Shown here: positions 1 through 5,746 of the stretch, one piece after another
Position numbering within the stretch: the first letter of the stretch is position 1
Layout of the letters: each line of letters begins with the position of its first letter
Assembly: GCA_002898915.1 (NCBI GenBank)
Contig: BEHO01000091.1
Coordinates: 1-5,746 of the forward strand
Length of the DNA stretch: 5,746 nucleotides
Reading direction: 5' to 3'
Source of the DNA: a bacterium HR12
Lineage (GTDB): Bacteria; Actinomycetota; UBA4738; HRBIN12
Notes under the pieces: generated by a model
The model's database searches: none
Told to the model about the DNA's origin: nothing
Seen by the model: the letters and a program-made list of their open reading frames with translations, nothing else
Translations under genes and position numbers: made by a program

Positions 1-822
1 GACGAGAAGATCTTCCGCGAGAAGCTCGACGTGGTCCTGAAGGAGAAGAACCTCGTCCTCACCAAGGTCTACAACCGCCTCCCGCTCGAGGCGGAGAAGA
101 TCGTCCAGGACTACCTGGGCTACGCGGAGCGCCTGCGCCCGTACGTCGTGGACACCTCGCGCCTGCTGTACGACGGGCTGCGGGAGGGCCGGAACGTGCT
201 CCTCGAGGGGGCGCAGGGCACGATGCTCGACCTGGACAAGGGGACCTACCCCTTCGTGACCTCCTCCAACCCGGTGGCCGGGTACGCGCTCGCGTCGGCC
301 GGGATCGGCCCGCACCAGGTGGACCGGGTGATCGGCGTGACGAAGGCCTACGTCACCCGGGTCGGGGCGGGGCCCTTCCCCACCGAGGAGCCCGGGCCGG
401 ACGGCGAGCGCATGGTCGAGCGGGGTCGGGAGTACGGGACCACCACGGGTCGGAAGCGCCGGTGCGGCTGGTTCGACGCGGTGATCCTCCGGTACGCGGC
501 ACGGGTGAACGGGCTCACCGAGCTGTTCCTCACCAAGCTCGACGTGCTCTCGGGCTTCGAGCGGATCAAGGTCTGCGTCGCGTACCGGGCCGACGGGCAG
601 ACCTTCGAGGACGTGCCGCCCCACCAGTCGCTGATCCACCGGGCCGAGCCGGTCTACGAGGAGGTCGAGGGGTGGGACAAGGACCTCGGGGCGGCCCGCT
701 CCCTGGAGGACCTGCCGCGCGCGGCGCGGCGGTACGTGGAGCTCGTGAGCGAGCTCGTCGGCGTGCCGGTGCGGATGGTCTCGGTCGGACCGGCCCGGGA
801 GCAGAGCCTGCCGGTGCCGTGA
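1..822 (+). CDS. purA: Adenylosuccinate synthetase, 3' part (5' end outside window)
   Basis: PurA joins IMP and aspartate using GTP to give adenylosuccinate, the first step from IMP to AMP, in the cytoplasm. The open frame runs from base 1 without a start and ends at TGA 820-822, leaving 273 residues. The family is about 430 residues long, so roughly 155 N-terminal residues, including the first GTP/Mg glycine-rich loop, lie upstream. Visible family blocks in order are EGAQGTMLDLDKGTYPFVTS (from 205, IMP-binding region), VGAGPFPTE (about 361-387), GTTTGRKRRCGWFDA (436-480, the IMP/aspartate loop with its arginine), TKLDVLSGFERIK (532 onward, GTP base recognition) and SVGPAREQ (781-804, GTP binding). 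All expected landmarks of this part are intact. An ATG at 403-ish and an in-frame GTG at 31 are internal, since homology continues upstream of both. It is followed after 10 bases by purD, so it is probably co-transcribed with the de novo pathway genes. The identification is near certain. Confidence 0.97.
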   Translation, partial: DEKIFREKLDVVLKEKNLVLTKVYNRLPLEAEKIVQDYLGYAERLRPYVVDTSRLLYDGLREGRNVLLEGAQGTMLDLDKGTYPFVTSSNPVAGYALASAGIGPHQVDRVIGVTKAYVTRVGAGPFPTEEPGPDGERMVERGREYGTTTGRKRRCGWFDAVILRYAARVNGLTELFLTKLDVLSGFERIKVCVAYRADGQTFEDVPPHQSLIHRAEPVYEEVEGWDKDLGAARSLEDLPRAARRYVELVSELVGVPVRMVSVGPAREQSLPVP

Positions 823-832: not shown

Positions 833-2122
833 GTGAGCCTGCGGGTCCTCGTCATCGGCGGCGGCGGACGCGAGCACGCCCTCGCGTGGCGTCTCGCGCG
901 CGACCCCGACGTCGGGGAGGTGCTCGCCGCGCCGGGCAACCCCGGGATCGCGGCCGAGGCGCGCTGCGTGCCCCTCGAGCCCACCGACGTGGACGCGGTG
1001 GCCGACCTCGCCGAGCGCGAGGGCGTGGACCTCGTCGTCGTGGGCCCGGAGGCGCCGCTCGTCGCCGGCCTCGCCGACGCGCTCCGCGCCCGGGGCGTCC
1101 CGACGTTCGGTCCCGGGCGGGACGGGGCTCGCCTGGAGGGCTCGAAGGCGTGGGCGAAGGCGCTCTGCGAGCGGCACGGGATCCCCACGGGGCGGGCGCG
1201 GGCGGTGACGAGCGTGGCCGACGGGGTCCGGGCCCTGGAGGAGCTCGGCCCGCCGTACGTCGTGAAGGCCGACGGGCTGGCCGCCGGGAAGGGCGTCGTC
1301 GTGACCGAGGACCGCGACCGCGCCGTCCAGGCGCTCGAGGACTGCCTCCTCCGCGGCGCCTTCGGACGGGCCGGGGCGACGGTGCTCGTCGAGGAGCACC
1401 TCGAGGGCCGCGAGGTCTCGGCCTTCGCCCTCACCGACGGCCGGCGCGTGGTGCCGCTCGGGATGGCGCAGGACTTCAAGCGGGCGCTCGACGGCGACGC
1501 GGGGCCGAACACCGGCGGGATGGGCGCCTACTCGCCGGTCCCCTTCGTGGATGGGGCCACGGCCCGAGCGATCTGGGAGGGCGTGCTGGCGCGCACGGCC
1601 GAGGCGCTCCACGCCGAGGGCGTCGCGTACCGGGGCGTGATCTACGCGGGGCTGATGCTGACCGCGGAGGGGCCGCGGGTCCTCGAGTTCAACTGCCGCT
1701 TCGGCGACCCGGAGGCCCAGGTCCTCATGCCGCGGGTCCGGGGCCCGCTCGCTCGGACCCTGCTGGCGTGCGCCCGCGGCGATCTCGAGGGCGTGGGGGT
1801 CGAGCTCGACGGCGGCGCCTGCGTGACGGTCGTCGCGGCCTCCGGCGGCTACCCGCGTCCCCACGAGACCGGGTTCGAGATCGAGGGCCTCGAGGAGGCC
1901 GCCCGCGTCGCGGGCGCCGTCGTGTTCCACGCCGGCACGGCGCTCCGAGACGGTAGAGTGGTCACCGCCGGTGGTCGGGTGCTCGCGGTGAGCGGTCTCG
2001 GGGACACGATCGGTCAGGCCCGCGCGGTGGCCTACGAGGCGCTCGCGCGCATCCGCTTCCGGGGGATGCACCACCGGTCGGACATCGCCGCGGCCGCCGC
2101 GGCGGAGGGGGGAGCCGCATGA
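833..2122 (+). CDS. purD: Phosphoribosylamine--glycine ligase (GAR synthetase)
   Basis: PurD ligates glycine to 5-phosphoribosylamine with ATP, giving GAR, the second step of de novo purine synthesis. The product has 429 residues, normal for the family. It opens with the Rossmann-like RVLVIGGGGREHALAW (GGGGREHA at residues 9-16) and PGNPGIA. The ATP-grasp core follows, with VKADGLAAGKGV at 144-155, then AQDFKR...GPNTGGMGAYSP. The Mg-binding LEFNCRFGDPEAQ lies at 284-296 (Glu285 and Asn287 expected ligands). The C-terminal domain ends in RFRGMHHRSDIA plus a short alanine-rich tail. The GTG start is chosen because the glycine-rich strand begins four residues later and a GAGGGG site sits at correct spacing. 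No ATG lies nearby. The AQDFKR variant, where many bacteria have AQDHKR, recalls actinobacterial PurD. The stop overlaps the next start by ATGA, implying translational coupling to the purE-like gene. Confidence 0.98.
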   Translation: MSLRVLVIGGGGREHALAWRLARDPDVGEVLAAPGNPGIAAEARCVPLEPTDVDAVADLAEREGVDLVVVGPEAPLVAGLADALRARGVPTFGPGRDGARLEGSKAWAKALCERHGIPTGRARAVTSVADGVRALEELGPPYVVKADGLAAGKGVVVTEDRDRAVQALEDCLLRGAFGRAGATVLVEEHLEGREVSAFALTDGRRVVPLGMAQDFKRALDGDAGPNTGGMGAYSPVPFVDGATARAIWEGVLARTAEALHAEGVAYRGVIYAGLMLTAEGPRVLEFNCRFGDPEAQVLMPRVRGPLARTLLACARGDLEGVGVELDGGACVTVVAASGGYPRPHETGFEIEGLEEAARVAGAVVFHAGTALRDGRVVTAGGRVLAVSGLGDTIGQARAVAYEALARIRFRGMHHRSDIAAAAAAEGGAA

Positions 2123-2586
2123 CCGAACCGCTCGTCGGGGTCCTCGTCGCCTCGCCCTCGGAGCTCGCGGTCATGCAGCAGGCGGGGGCGATCCTGGAGA
2201 AGCTCGGCATCCCCCACGAGACCCGGGTGATGTCCTCCTCGCGCAGCCCCGACGTCGTGGACGAGTACGCGAGGACGGCCTTCGAGCGAGGGCTCAAGGT
2301 CCTCATCTGCACCACCGGGATCTCCGGTCACCTGGCGGCGGCGGTGGCGGCGCGGACGATCCTGCCGGTGATCGGGGTGCCCATCGCCTCCGAGCAGATG
2401 GACGGCACGATGGCCCTCGTGGTGACGGCCCAGATGCCGCGGGGGGTCCCGGTGGCCGCGGTCGGGGTGGACGCCTCGGTGAACGCGGCGATCCTGGCGG
2501 CCCAGATCCTCGGCGTGGCCGACACCGAGATCCAGGCCCGGCTGTGGAAGTTCAAGGACGATCTCGCGGAGGGCCTGCGGCTGTGA
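2119..2586 (+). CDS. Divergent PurE-like protein (AIR carboxylase / N5-CAIR mutase family) lacking the catalytic His
   Basis: The 155-residue product aligns end to end with class I PurE, which converts N5-CAIR (made by PurK) to CAIR. Shared stretches are AILEKLGIP (24-32), the SRSP/D region (41-45), AARTILPVIGVPI (77-89), AQMPRGVPVA (104-113) and NAAILAAQIL (122-131). The active site differs. By alignment from memory to E. coli PurE, GSKSD becomes ASPSE (11-15, Asp19 to Glu15), SAHRTP becomes SSSRSP (39-44), so catalytic His45 is Ser41, and AGAGGAAHLPG becomes CTTGISGHLAA (64-74). Arg42 (Arg46, phosphate contact) and His71 (His75) remain. It does not resemble class II PurE, which also keeps SAHK. 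The ATG overlaps the purD stop (ATGA) and follows a GGAGGGGGGAG run at 2104-2114. Position between purD and purB argues for a purine role, but the lost histidine makes the usual activity doubtful. It may be a paralogue, with a canonical purE beside purK elsewhere, or a variant enzyme. Family membership is firm and function is open, so I give no gene symbol. Confidence 0.9.
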   Translation: MTEPLVGVLVASPSELAVMQQAGAILEKLGIPHETRVMSSSRSPDVVDEYARTAFERGLKVLICTTGISGHLAAAVAARTILPVIGVPIASEQMDGTMALVVTAQMPRGVPVAAVGVDASVNAAILAAQILGVADTEIQARLWKFKDDLAEGLRL

Positions 2587-2620: not shown

Positions 2621-3928
2621 ATGATCCCGCGCTACGCGCTCCCGGAGATGGCGGCCGTGTGGTCCGACGAGGCGCGGATGGGCCACTGGCTCGAGATCGA
2701 GATCCTCGCCGTGGAGGCCTGGGCGCGCCTCGGGAAGGTCCCGGACGAGGACGCCCGGACGATCCGGGAGCGCGCGTCCTTCACCGTGGCCCGGGTGGAG
2801 GAGCTCGAGCGCGTGACCCGGCACGACGTCGCGGCCTTCGTCCAGTGCGTGGCGGAGTCCGTGGGGCCCGCGGGGCGGTGGATCCACTTCGGGATGACCT
2901 CTTCCGACGTGCTCGACACCGGGTTCGCGCTCCAGCTCCGGGAGGCGGCGGACCTGCTCCTCCGGCGGCTGGACCGGATCGTCGAGGTGACGGCGGATCT
3001 CGCCTTCGCCCACCGCGCCACGCCCATCGTCGGGCGGACCCACGGGGTGCACGCCGAGCCGACGTCCTTCGGCCACAAGGTGGCGACCTGGGCCTTCGAG
3101 CTCGACCGCGGTCGGGAGCGCCTGCGCCGAGCGCGGGAGGCGGTGAGCGTGGGCAAGCTCTCCGGGGCCGTCGGGAACTACGCCCAGATCGACCCCCGGG
3201 TCGAGGAGGAGGTGTGCGCGCGCCTCGGGCTCCGTCCGGAGGACGCCGCGAGCCAGGTGGTCCACCGCGACCGGCACGCCGAGTACCTGGCGGCCCTCGC
3301 GCTCCTCGCCGGCGCCTGCGATCGGATCGCGACCGAGATCCGGCACCTCGCCCGCACCGAGGTGCGGGAGGTCCAGGAGCCCTTCGCGCCCGGCCAGAAG
3401 GGCTCGAGCGCCATGCCCCACAAGCGGAACCCGGTGGCGTGCGAGCGGATCTCGGGGCTCGCGCGGGTGATCCGCGGCAACCTCCAGGCCGCCCTCGAGA
3501 ACATCGCCCTCTGGCACGAGCGCGACATCTCCCACTCCTCCGCCGAGCGCATCATCTTCCCCGACTCGACGATGGCCCTGGACTTCATGTTGAAGGAGCT
3601 CACGTGGGTCCTCGAGGGCCTCGTCGTGCACCCGGAGCGGATGCGCGAGAACCTGTGGTTCGGGGACGGCCTCGCCTTCAGCCAGGCCGTGCTCCTCGCC
3701 CTCGTCGAGCGGGGGCTGCCGCGCGACGAGGCCTACGCGATCGTGCAGCGGGCGGCGGCGGCGGCCTGGGACGAGGGGGCGTCGTTCCGCGAGCGGGTGG
3801 CGGCGGAGCCGCGGGTGCGGGAGCTCGTCTCCCCCGAGGAGCTGGACGCGCTCTTCGATCCGGCCCGGTACCTGGCGAACCTCGACGTGGTGTTCGACCG
3901 ATTGGCCAAGCTGCGAGGTGGGGGATGA
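2621..3928 (+). CDS. purB: Adenylosuccinate lyase
   Basis: PurB removes fumarate twice in purine synthesis, from SAICAR to give AICAR and from adenylosuccinate to give AMP. It works as a cytoplasmic homotetramer of the aspartase/fumarase superfamily. The product is 435 residues, of the B. subtilis/Thermotoga length class rather than the longer E. coli type. It begins MIPRYALPEMAAVWSDEA, as these proteins usually do. Landmarks are TRHDVAAF with His68, HFGMTSSDVLDT with His89, RTHGVHAEPT with catalytic His141, VVHRDRHAEY at 213-222, and the superfamily signature GSSAMPHKRNP with catalytic Ser263. The C-terminal ADSL domain follows, GLAFSQ onward. Numbering of the three histidines coincides with B. 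subtilis PurB. One variation is His215 where many relatives have Gln (QRDRHA). The start is fixed by GAGGAGG and by homology from residue 2. The stop overlaps purC (ATGA). Its presence with purA covers both lyase reactions in one operon. Confidence 0.98.
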   Translation: MIPRYALPEMAAVWSDEARMGHWLEIEILAVEAWARLGKVPDEDARTIRERASFTVARVEELERVTRHDVAAFVQCVAESVGPAGRWIHFGMTSSDVLDTGFALQLREAADLLLRRLDRIVEVTADLAFAHRATPIVGRTHGVHAEPTSFGHKVATWAFELDRGRERLRRAREAVSVGKLSGAVGNYAQIDPRVEEEVCARLGLRPEDAASQVVHRDRHAEYLAALALLAGACDRIATEIRHLARTEVREVQEPFAPGQKGSSAMPHKRNPVACERISGLARVIRGNLQAALENIALWHERDISHSSAERIIFPDSTMALDFMLKELTWVLEGLVVHPERMRENLWFGDGLAFSQAVLLALVERGLPRDEAYAIVQRAAAAAWDEGASFRERVAAEPRVRELVSPEELDALFDPARYLANLDVVFDRLAKLRGGG

Positions 3929-4872
3929 GCGGGAAGCTGCACGCGCAGGGGAAGGTCCGCGACGTCTACGAGATCGACGACGAGCGCCTGCTCCTCGTGG
4001 CGACCGACCGGATCAGCGCCTTCGACGTCGTGCTGCCGAACCCGATCCCGGACAAGGGGCGGGTCCTGACGGGCCTCACGCTGTTCTGGCTGGAGCGGAC
4101 GAAGGACCTGGTCGGCAACCACCTGATCTCGGCCGACCGGCGGGACTTCCCCGGGACCTTCCGCGACGAGCCCTCCCTCGCCGGCCGGGCCATGCTCGTG
4201 CGGCGGGCGGAGGTGATCCCCGTCGAGTGCGTGGCGCGCGGGTACCTCACCGGCTCGGGGCTGAAGCAGTACCTCGCCGAGGGTCACGTCTGCGGGGTCC
4301 CGCTCCCGCCGGGCCTCGTCGAGGCCTCGCGCCTGCCGGAGCCCATCTTTACCCCGACCACGAAGGCCGCCACCGGCCACGACCAGCCCCTCACCTTCGA
4401 GGAGACGGTCGAGCTGATCGGGCGCGGTCTCGCCGAGCGCCTGCGCGAGCTCACGATCGCGCTCTACGAGCGGGGGGCGGAAATCGCCCTCGAGCGCGGC
4501 ATCATCGTGGCCGACACGAAGTTCGAGTTCGGGTTCGCGGACGGCGAGCTGATCCTCATCGACGAGGTGCTGACCCCCGACTCCTCCCGCTTCTGGCCCG
4601 CGGAGGGCTACGAGCCGGGACGGCCGCAGCCGAGCTTCGACAAGCAGTTCGTGCGGGACTGGCTCGACGCGAGCGGGTGGGACCACGAGCCGCCGGCGCC
4701 GGAGCTGCCACCCGAGGTCATCGGTCGCACGGCGGCCAAGTACCGCGAGGCGTACGAGCGGATCACCGGCGAGCCCTTCGACCGCTACCGCCAGCGGATG
4801 GGCGTCATGTCCGACCACGACTGGGAGCGCTGCGCGGTGGATCTGGAGCGCCTGCGGATGGAGCACGCATGA
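3925..4872 (+). CDS. purC: SAICAR synthetase, long form
   Basis: PurC couples CAIR to aspartate with ATP to form SAICAR, so it uses the product expected of PurE and feeds PurB. The product is 315 residues, of the long type seen in actinobacteria and yeast rather than the roughly 240-residue type of E. coli and Bacillus. Motifs in order are GKVRDVYE (9-16, nucleotide loop), DRISAFD (28-34), IPVECVARGYLTGS (98-111, SAICAR synthetase signature 1), IVADTKFEFG (194-203, signature 2) and LIDEVLTPDSSRFW (211-224). The actinobacterial-like EPGRPQPSFDKQFVRDWL follows. Homology normally ends around the ITGEPF stretch (280-285). About 30 further residues, polar and charged, follow to the stop. The ATG overlaps the purB stop and is preceded by GAGGTG at 3915-3920, a good anti-SD match. 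The same frame is open far upstream inside purB, but that part is a GC-rich shadow. The stop overlaps purS by ATGA. Confidence 0.97.
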   Translation: MSGKLHAQGKVRDVYEIDDERLLLVATDRISAFDVVLPNPIPDKGRVLTGLTLFWLERTKDLVGNHLISADRRDFPGTFRDEPSLAGRAMLVRRAEVIPVECVARGYLTGSGLKQYLAEGHVCGVPLPPGLVEASRLPEPIFTPTTKAATGHDQPLTFEETVELIGRGLAERLRELTIALYERGAEIALERGIIVADTKFEFGFADGELILIDEVLTPDSSRFWPAEGYEPGRPQPSFDKQFVRDWLDASGWDHEPPAPELPPEVIGRTAAKYREAYERITGEPFDRYRQRMGVMSDHDWERCAVDLERLRMEHA

Positions 4873-5129
4873 AGCACCGGTTCGAGGTCCTCGTCTCGCT
4901 CCGGCCCGGGCTCCTCGACCCCCAGGGCAAGGCGATCGAGGGGGCGCTCCCCGCGATGGGCTGGACGAACGTGAGCGAGGTCCGGGTCGGCAAGCACGTC
5001 GCGCTCACCGTGGGGGCCGACTCGCCGGAGGCGGCCCGGGCGCAGGTGGAGGAGATGGCCCGACGCCTGCTCTCGAACCCGGTGATCGAGGACTACCGGA
5101 TCCTGGACCAGCGGGAGGTCCCGGCGTGA
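4869..5129 (+). CDS. purS: FGAM synthase subunit PurS
   Basis: PurS is the small structural subunit of the three-part FGAM synthase (PurS, PurQ, PurL). This enzyme converts FGAR and glutamine to FGAM. PurS bridges the glutaminase PurQ and the synthase PurL. The product is 86 residues, the usual length. It shows the family hallmarks: a first beta strand FEVLVSLRPGLLDPQGKAI (5-23), GALPAMGW, VSEVRVGKHVALTV, a helix rich in Ala, Glu and Arg, and the C-terminal LLSNPVIEDYRI. It starts on the ATG that overlaps the purC stop, with GGAG at 4860-4863 five bases upstream. It overlaps purQ by GTGA. The coupling would help keep PurS and PurQ in balanced amounts. A separate purS implies that the organism uses the small-PurL system rather than the large single-chain PurL of E. 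coli. Confidence 0.96.
   Translation: MKHRFEVLVSLRPGLLDPQGKAIEGALPAMGWTNVSEVRVGKHVALTVGADSPEAARAQVEEMARRLLSNPVIEDYRILDQREVPA
5113..5118 (+). promoter_or_regulatory. Shine-Dalgarno of purQ
   Basis: GGGAGG sits seven bases before the GTG at 5126, inside the end of purS. It decides for this GTG as the purQ start, since the next in-frame ATG falls after the conserved N-terminal strand. Confidence 0.65.
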
Positions 5130-5746
5130 GCTCGGCGCCCAGGGTCGGGGTCATCACGTTCCCGGGCTCCCTCGACGACCGGGACGCGATCCGGGCGGTG
5201 GAGCTCCTCGGCGGGCGGGGGGTGCCGCTCTGGCACGCCGAGCGCGACCTCGCCGGCGTGGACGCCGTGATCCTGCCCGGCGGCTTCTCCTACGGCGACT
5301 ACCTCCGGTGCGGGGCGATCGCGCGCTTCGCGCCGATCATGGAGGAGGTCGTGCGGTTCGCGGCCGCCGGCGGACCGGTCGTCGGGATCTGCAATGGGTT
5401 CCAGATCCTCTGCGAGGCCGGGCTGCTCCCAGGGGCCTTGATCCGCAACCGCTCGCTCCGGTTCATCTGCCGCGTGGTGCACGTCCGGGTGGAGACCTCG
5501 CGCTCGCCCCTCACCGAGGGGCTCGCGCCCGGGGAGGTGCTCGAGATCCCCATCAAGCACGGCGAGGGGCAGTTCGTCGCCGCCGAGGAGGACCTGGCGC
5601 GGATCGAGGACGAGGGGCTCGTGGTCTTCCGGTACTGCGCCCCCGACGGGACCGTGGACGACGCGCACAACCCGAACGGGTCCGCCCACGCCATCGCCGG
5701 CGTCCGGAACGCGGCCGGGAACGTCGTCGGGCTCATGCCGCACCCC
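5126..5746 (+). CDS. purQ: FGAM synthase glutaminase subunit PurQ, 5' part (3' end outside window)
   Basis: PurQ is the class I glutamine amidotransferase subunit of FGAM synthase. It hydrolyses glutamine and passes ammonia to PurL. The frame is open for 207 codons to the last base. The family is about 220-235 residues, so only some 15-25 residues are missing. The N-terminus RVGVITFPGSLDDRDA (6-21) has the actinobacterial form of the usual FPGSNCD. LPGGFSYGDYLRCGAIA (50-66) forms the oxyanion region, and Cys89 in VVGICNGFQIL is the nucleophile. LRFICR, IPIKHGEGQF and the final LMPHP follow. His206 is the catalytic histidine, and its partner glutamate should be the very next residue but one or so (HPE), just beyond the window. 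The GTG start overlaps the purS stop and has a clear Shine-Dalgarno. purL would be expected next. Confidence 0.97.
   Translation, partial: MSSAPRVGVITFPGSLDDRDAIRAVELLGGRGVPLWHAERDLAGVDAVILPGGFSYGDYLRCGAIARFAPIMEEVVRFAAAGGPVVGICNGFQILCEAGLLPGALIRNRSLRFICRVVHVRVETSRSPLTEGLAPGEVLEIPIKHGEGQFVAAEEDLARIEDEGLVVFRYCAPDGTVDDAHNPNGSAHAIAGVRNAAGNVVGLMPHP

Follow-up and report, generated by a model that had tools for sequence, protein, structure and literature searches.

A PurE-family clade without the catalytic histidine is retained in a purine operon of Actinomycetota and may have been re-purposed

The locus studied here raises the question of what a PurE-family protein does in a purine operon when serine stands in place of its catalytic histidine. 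The window, a stretch of 5746 bases that is one entire contig of an assembly 66% complete, carries on its plus strand, according to curated models, the order purA (partial)-purD-PurE-family gene-purB-purC-purS-purQ (partial) (Table 1). Coupling of the PurE-family gene to purD, proposed in the first-pass annotation, is evident from the overlap of its start codon with the purD stop codon (ATGA at 2119-2122). Bases 2233-2250, TCC TCC TCG CGC AGC CCC, encode S39 S40 S41 R42 S43 P44, and HMMER aligned this SSSRSP stretch without gaps to S-A-H-R-T-P of the five best solved PurEs; the assignment of Ser41 (TCG, 2239-2241) to the position of the catalytic histidine, made in the same annotation, was thus confirmed. 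The order purD-X-purB, X being the PurE-family gene, recurred in 12/12 loci L002-L013 and also in L202-L205, some of these loci belonging to the same genomes. An extra ORF precedes purB in L008/L202; in G022, the variant gene and purB are separated by an ORF (L202:8371-9060, minus strand) that has pterin-4a-carbinolamine dehydratase and glyoxalase-like domains.

Table 1. Genes of the window and sites of interest in the His-less PurE-family protein
Feature	Positions	Strand	Evidence or remark
purA, 3' part (contig begins within gene)	1..822	+	NF002223 366.4 bits, partial, below cut-off 402
purD, operon neighbour	833..2122	+	TIGR00877 498.7 bits
His-less PurE-family gene, 155 aa	2119..2586	+	AIRC PF00731 156 bits, cut-off 30; AF2 PurE fold
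Residues 11-15, A-S-P-S-E against G-S-x-S-D in PurE	2149..2163	+	Residue roles from PMC9376930
Residues 39-42, S-S-S-R; Ser39 (ring contact) and Arg42 (phosphate contact) retained, His gone	2233..2244	+	
Codon 41, TCG, Ser at the PurE catalytic His position (A. aceti His59, human PAICS His303)	2239..2241	+	
Residues 64-72, C-T-T-G-I-S-G-H-L, rebuilt loop against A-G-A-G-G-A-A-H-L	2308..2334	+	
C-terminal W-K-F-K-D-D-L-A-E-G-L-R-L	2545..2583	+	
purB, operon neighbour	2621..3928	+	TIGR00928 521.9 bits
purC	3925..4872	+	NF010568 424.7 bits
purS	4869..5129	+	NF004630 94.5 bits
purQ, 5' part (contig stops within gene)	5126..5746	+	NF002957 284.7 bits

The histidine in question is reported to be universally conserved in class I and class II PurE, and its exchange for serine or alanine to inactivate the PurE of Acetobacter aceti (PMC9376930). 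In the mechanism calculated there, it takes the C4 proton after CO2 addition, and in PAICS no other residue near the substrate is said to accept a proton (PMC9376930). A decaying gene would be expected to lose a catalytic side chain early on, which speaks for decay as an explanation, considered here together with sequencing error. Some 5.8 billion proteins were searched, yielding 3542 relatives, and among the best 120 of these the motif read SSSRSP in 50, SASRSP in 34, SASRNP in 11, SSSRNP in 8, SAARSP in 7, SAPRSP in 5, SSPRSP in 2, SAHRNP in 2 and SAARNP in 1. A second search, with another clade member as the query, gave 2162 relatives, the best 120 of which were likewise used. Position 41 in the 240 homologues so obtained, the best 120 of each search, was S in 217, A in 13, P in 7, H in 2 and C in 1; histidine was absent from 238/240, and the form is not isolated to a single sequence, as the first-pass annotation had considered it might be.

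The His-less gene was present, free of internal stops, in 17/17 genomes examined of the window's family, which consists of uncultured Actinomycetota; the copy of G084 is truncated where its contig stops. In the five closest pairs of variants dN/dS (Nei-Gojobori) was 0.018, 0.000, 0.073, 0.008 and 0.008, and in the next seven pairs, with dS of 0.42-0.57, it was 0.20-0.42; these values cover the 12 closest of 136 pairs. By the close pairs, the gene is under strong purifying selection. Error or decay is ruled out by the homologue counts and dN/dS, together with the occurrence in every family genome, and we give it practically no weight; the earlier judgement that the substitution is not simple decay, in a gene kept in frame, holds. 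Mean pN was also lower in the variant than in the second PurE that 11 of these genomes encode (0.133 against 0.224; variant lower in 54/55 matched pairs), with the reservation that the pairs share genomes and so are not independent, and that inter-genus exchange of the second PurE may inflate its divergence.

When 396 sampled genomes of the phylum were scanned with a profile, at most 9 candidates being scored per genome, scores of at least 249.7 bits were confined to the 17 family genomes. Within the same order, operonic orthologues with the histidine reached 218.8-231.1 bits (178.7 and 138.8 for two fragments), and everything else among the matches listed scored 174.4 bits or less. These orthologues occur in nine genomes of two sister families and keep the histidine in 9/9, as SAHRNP, SAHRTP, SAHRSP or SPHRNP. 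Directly upstream of the orthologue, the start of purD is visible by eye in 8/9 of these genomes, and in G162 (L205) the order was mapped as purA-purD-X-purB-purC-purS-purQ. One more genome of the class, G155, gave no orthologue match.

The descent of the variant was addressed by an IQ-TREE tree of 82 proteins, from which 2 of the 9 operonic orthologues were left out as fragments. All 17 variants formed one clade (support 100/100), as the first-pass annotation, which had proposed building a tree, thought possible. They fall inside a 24-row clade with seven His-bearing operonic orthologues (100/98), being either nested among these or sister to them, and their stem is long, at 0.89 changes per column. 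The 12 second PurEs lie elsewhere, in two groups in the best tree, a single origin being compatible with the well-supported branches. At two joins, one of them that of act_L106 with the 24-row clade, IQ-TREE gave a warning that long branches meet, and these forks were not relied on. Two homologues, P0096 and P0115, combine the rebuilt loop and Glu15 with a retained S-A-H-R. The best 62-row tree places them among basal branches that are not resolved, outside the His-less rows, with weak support (61/40, and 64% of bootstrap trees). Either the loop change preceded loss of the histidine or the histidine came back, and it is possible that both proteins are living intermediates.

A separate observation concerns G161 (L182, L207), which encodes a purEK pair apart from its operonic PurE, and is the only genome with PurK among the 10 genomes of the class outside the family. 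Its operonic PurE still bears the histidine (S-P-H-R) and has Ala in place of the two phosphate serines. This genome may show a stage preceding loss of the histidine.

Position 41 is not the only part of the active site that has changed. For human PAICS, 18 residues of the AIR site are listed (PMC9376930); these were placed on the alignment by motif, by eye, and the 17 variants were compared with 63 His-bearing PurEs. Of the positions at which conservation among the latter was 80% or more, the variants had replaced 9/16 in the active site against 8/46 elsewhere (Fisher p 0.005; 0.010 at a 90% threshold and 0.064 at 95%). Because all or most His-bearing operonic orthologues are themselves altered at three of the nine replaced positions (10, 64 and 70), a stricter count was made of only those positions which the orthologues still keep, and this gave 6/13 against 8/44 (p 0.049; 0.022 at 90% and 0.064 at 95%). 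Enrichment of changes in the active site thus appears modest once positions altered in the orthologues are set aside. The six changes on the stem are Gly11>Ala, Asp15>Glu, His41>Ser/Ala, Gly65>Ser/Thr, Ala66>Thr and Ala69>Ser, the last being Ser in 16/17 variants and Thr in one, and Ala11 and Glu15 being found in 17/17 family genomes. Outside the listed AIR site, Asp98, Ser102, Val104 and Gly119 are also replaced. The earlier description of the protein as well conserved elsewhere must therefore be corrected, since further active-site positions are altered as well.

What replaced the ancestral residues hardly varies. In the 240 homologues (best 120 of each search) Thr66, Gly67, Ser69, Gly70 and His71 each occur in 240/240 and Glu15 in 239/239; Gly67 and His71, the second histidine, are residues retained from PurE. 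The loop 64-72 to which most of these belong forms the CO2/carboxylate side of the PurE active site, and its Cys64 is already present in His-bearing operonic orthologues. The site has thus been rebuilt and subsequently fixed. Contacts to the ribonucleotide are largely kept: Ser39 in 240/240, Arg42 in 239/239 having a residue there, and the phosphate contact Ser12 in all with a residue at that position. Ser14, another phosphate contact, is Ser in 124/239, about half, and phosphate binding may therefore be weakened. The C-terminal segment is nearly invariant in the clade and has a similar form in the His-bearing operonic orthologues.

The fold has been preserved. An AF2 model built from 75 sequences had a pLDDT of 95.4; its best Foldseek match was A. 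aceti PurE (E 3e-17, TM about 0.93), and all 50 matches listed were PurEs. The variant resembles class I PurE (N5-CAIR mutase; TIGR01162, PF00731) in fold, length, Ser12, Ser39, Arg42, the second histidine and its place in the pur operon. It differs in having no catalytic histidine and hence no SAHR, ASPxE for GSxSD, C(S/T)TG(I/L)SGH for AGAGGAAH and mostly x-A-L-x-(V/I) for D-S-L-x-S, and in being accompanied in 11/17 genomes by another, ordinary PurE. Against TIGR01162 the window protein scored 148.8 bits, narrowly under the cut-off of 149.6, and five other His-less variants scored 154.5 (above) and 148.5, 140.2, 136.6 and 136.2 (below), so that 5/6 fell short, by 0.8 to 13.4 bits; among His-bearing proteins, P0096 scored 148.4, two operonic orthologues 193.3 and 197.0, and two second PurEs 218.7 and 189.7.

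Class II PurE (AIR carboxylase; T. denticola and the AIRc domain of PAICS) belongs to the same superfamily, and the frequent lack of PurK recalls it, PurK being mostly absent also from the sister-family genomes with the orthologue in the purD-X-purB slot. Class II proteins are described as keeping His followed by Lys, and an A-G-R-S-N-G loop (PMC9376930), whereas the variant has Ser41-Arg42 and C-T-T-G-I-S-G. LarB of nickel-pincer cofactor biosynthesis is a distant relative of the PurE fold, and identity with it, which the first-pass annotation had suggested checking, is contradicted by the score of 21 bits against NF033503 (cut-off 175). Separate, weaker PF00731 matches that look LarB-like by eye were seen in 10/17 family genomes, two of them after translation. 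From these sequence comparisons, the protein appears to be a new PurE-family variant that is neither class I nor class II. No report of a His-less PurE clade was found in a literature search whose coverage left out most subscription journals, in agreement with the earlier supposition that such a class had not been characterised.

The A. aceti His59 mutants (2fw6, 2fw7, 2fwi, 2fw9, 5clh) are a laboratory counterpart, as they too have the PurE fold without the histidine, with the difference that each carries a single laboratory change whereas the variant is altered at several active-site positions. One was crystallised with AIR and CO2: entries 2fw6, 2fw7, 5clh and 5clj have one common sequence, the first three are titled H59N, and 5CLJ is cited as the complex with AIR and CO2 (PMC9376930). 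A PurE without the catalytic histidine can therefore still hold both. With the histidine mutants inactive, AIR and CO2 nevertheless held, and the contacts and fold kept in the variant, binding of AIR without synthesis of CAIR seems likely. Our preferred explanation, held tentatively and at close to an even chance, is that the operonic PurE has been re-purposed, probably to bind AIR or a close AIR-type ribonucleotide, and would not form CAIR; ligand, binding and role are all deduced from sequence. Under it, Ser12, Ser39 and Arg42, with Glu15 for the ribose-binding Asp, would hold the ribonucleotide, the missing base would block transfer of the C4 proton, and the protein might supply, shield or sense AIR or N5-CAIR for the downstream CAIR-PurC step. 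Loss of the catalytic residue with retention of fold and conservation, and an ordinary (SAHR) PurE paralogue in 11/17 genomes, would suit a pseudoenzyme, which the protein may be. On the other hand, a loop as constant as the site of an active enzyme is more than binding alone seems to need, and this counts against a purely binding role. Also against the preferred explanation are P0096 and P0115, which have the rebuilt loop together with the histidine, the seven pairs at dN/dS 0.20-0.42, the loss of Ser14 in about half of the homologues and the modest enrichment under the stricter count.

The second PurE is central to this question. It was found, with S-A-H-R-T-P and at another locus, in 11/17 family genomes, including the same-genus relative G127, and it may have taken over synthesis of CAIR and so freed the operonic copy. 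That the His-less form would be the only PurE in its genomes, a prospect raised in the first-pass annotation, was thus not borne out. Of the two alternatives offered there, another function has become stronger and a PurE subclass that makes CAIR through a differently arranged site weaker, because of this second SAHR PurE. In the window's own assembly, 66% complete, there is one PurE only, and no second PurE was found in six genomes: G000 (66% complete), G149 (84%), G151 (67%), G152 (98%), G150 (87%) and G073 (89%), that is, six misses of 17 against about 2.1 expected from completeness summed over genomes. G000, G149 and G151 have congeners with a second PurE, and in G152 the locus is truncated by a contig edge, at which a fragment of purK remains. 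G150 and G073, single-genome genera and two of the 12 genera, gave no sign of a second purE locus, including no match to the zinc-ribbon gene described below. PurN was found in 17/17 family genomes, as was PurH (16 above cut-off, that of G151 being a contig-edge fragment); PurF and PurM were recognised in operon stretches by eye only. As G150 and G073 have PurN and PurH with neither a second PurE nor a purK fragment, the variant may be their only PurE. The failure to find a second PurE in six genomes, for G150 and G073 without explanation, is the main evidence against AIR binding without CAIR formation. The idea that the variant fills a missing step of the pathway was set aside, no gap being seen except PurK and, in some genomes, PurE.

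These two genera speak for a variant that still makes CAIR, as a third PurE arrangement in which the base would be His71, the equivalent of A. aceti His89, or Glu15. Consistent with such activity, His71 is found in 240/240 homologues (best 120 of each search), and the relatives in the same operon slot are His-bearing PurEs. A. aceti His59 mutants, in which by their titles only His59 was changed, are nevertheless reported inactive (PMC9376930), and His89 is therefore no substitute there. Considering also the second PurE in 11/17 genomes and the description of the histidine as the only proton acceptor near the PAICS substrate (PMC9376930), we judge this arrangement, proposed from sequence, to be improbable.

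Full PurK was found in 5/17 family genomes (G022, G049, G084, G106 and G153); four of these have it next to the gene of the second PurE, and G084 has both genes at contig edges. No full PurK was seen in the window's own incomplete assembly, and no purK beside the variant in L002-L013 and L202-L204; outside the family, 1/10 genomes of the sister families and class had PurK. In 7/17 genomes (G152, G117, G037, G084, G095, G049 and G127) an ORF of about 89 aa with a zinc ribbon follows purE-(purK), examples being L197:5461-5727, L200:6064-6381 and L208:380-646. Pfam gave sub-threshold matches only for the L208 ORF and none for those of L197 and L200. In G117, G037, G095 and G127 this gene comes directly after purE, so that the locus lacks purK; nor did these four genomes show a full PurK at any other place. 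The zinc-ribbon protein is possibly a partner of the CAIR step. A role of the variant as a replacement of PurK was rejected, since its presence does not track that of PurK.

An altogether new enzyme would be another solution: the rebuilt site might run a different reaction on an AIR-type ribonucleotide, such as making or breaking the N5 carbamate. Conversion of AIR and CO2 to N5-CAIR is the first half of the PurE reaction and needs no transfer of the C4 proton. The invariance of the new loop residues, like that of a catalytic site, and the slower evolution of the variant than of the second PurE of the same genomes point in this direction, and a PurK-like supply could be useful in the four genomes whose second locus lacks purK. 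The variant is, however, equally present in the five genomes which have PurK, and the sister families are mostly without PurK too, yet no His-less form was found there. We consider such an activity unlikely, though deserving attention. The more specific proposal of an undescribed PurE-fold enzyme, in which the Thr-Gly-Ile/Leu-Ser-Gly-His loop and Glu15 would replace the C4-carboxylation machinery, and which would partner the second PurE without need of PurK, catalysing the N5 half-reaction only (AIR + CO2 <-> N5-CAIR) or another reaction of AIR, appears distinctly unlikely.

Partnership with the second PurE could also be physical. PurE is reported to be octameric (PMC11451730), and the variant, which retains the PurE fold in its model, could be a non-catalytic subunit of mixed octamers with the second PurE, by analogy with the methanobacterial PurE-PurE' fusion, the closest parallel in the literature, and its PurE' half. 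That half, likewise a diverged PurE copy alongside an ordinary PurE, is said possibly to be structural, and deletion in the PurE' part of the M. smithii gene to abolish complementation (PMC3261824). The methanobacterial protein is one fused chain, whereas the variant is a single domain of 155 aa with its own stop codon. As the zinc-ribbon gene trails the second purE in 7/17 genomes, much of the family seems to share an orthologous second locus; the second PurEs nevertheless form two groups in the best tree (one origin being still compatible), vary at the active site (AAHLPG, AAHLAG, AAALPG) where the variant is nearly constant, and are encoded at a different locus. Mixed octamers thus seem decidedly improbable.

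Some features of ordinary PurEs merit mention in their own right. The A-A-A-L-P-G type (L119, L120, L121 and L122 of G095, G127, G007 and G061; L078, L079) has no equivalent of A. aceti His89, the second histidine, and keeps SAHR. PurEs of this type have no adjacent purK in four family stretches (L196-L199) and in L078 and L079; purK is present in 63/65 other loci of L015-L081, the exceptions being L019 and L024. The type may mark PurK-independent PurEs. In G095, G127, G007 and G061 the second PurE has only the first of the two histidines and the operonic variant only the second, a complementary pattern; both histidines are kept in the other seven family genomes having a second PurE. Finally, G034, G059 and G145 (3/149 Actinomycetota genomes), 90-98% complete, had no PF00731 match and may be purine auxotrophs.

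What this locus reveals is a natural clade in which the catalytic histidine and several more active-site residues were given up, yet the gene has remained in the purine operon. Many of its members are named 5-(carboxyamino)imidazole ribonucleotide mutase by JGI. That name is probably incorrect, and where a genome is incomplete it could mask the lack of a PurE. Should the protein bind or modify AIR, it would point to an unrecognised layer at the branch point of purine and thiamine synthesis.
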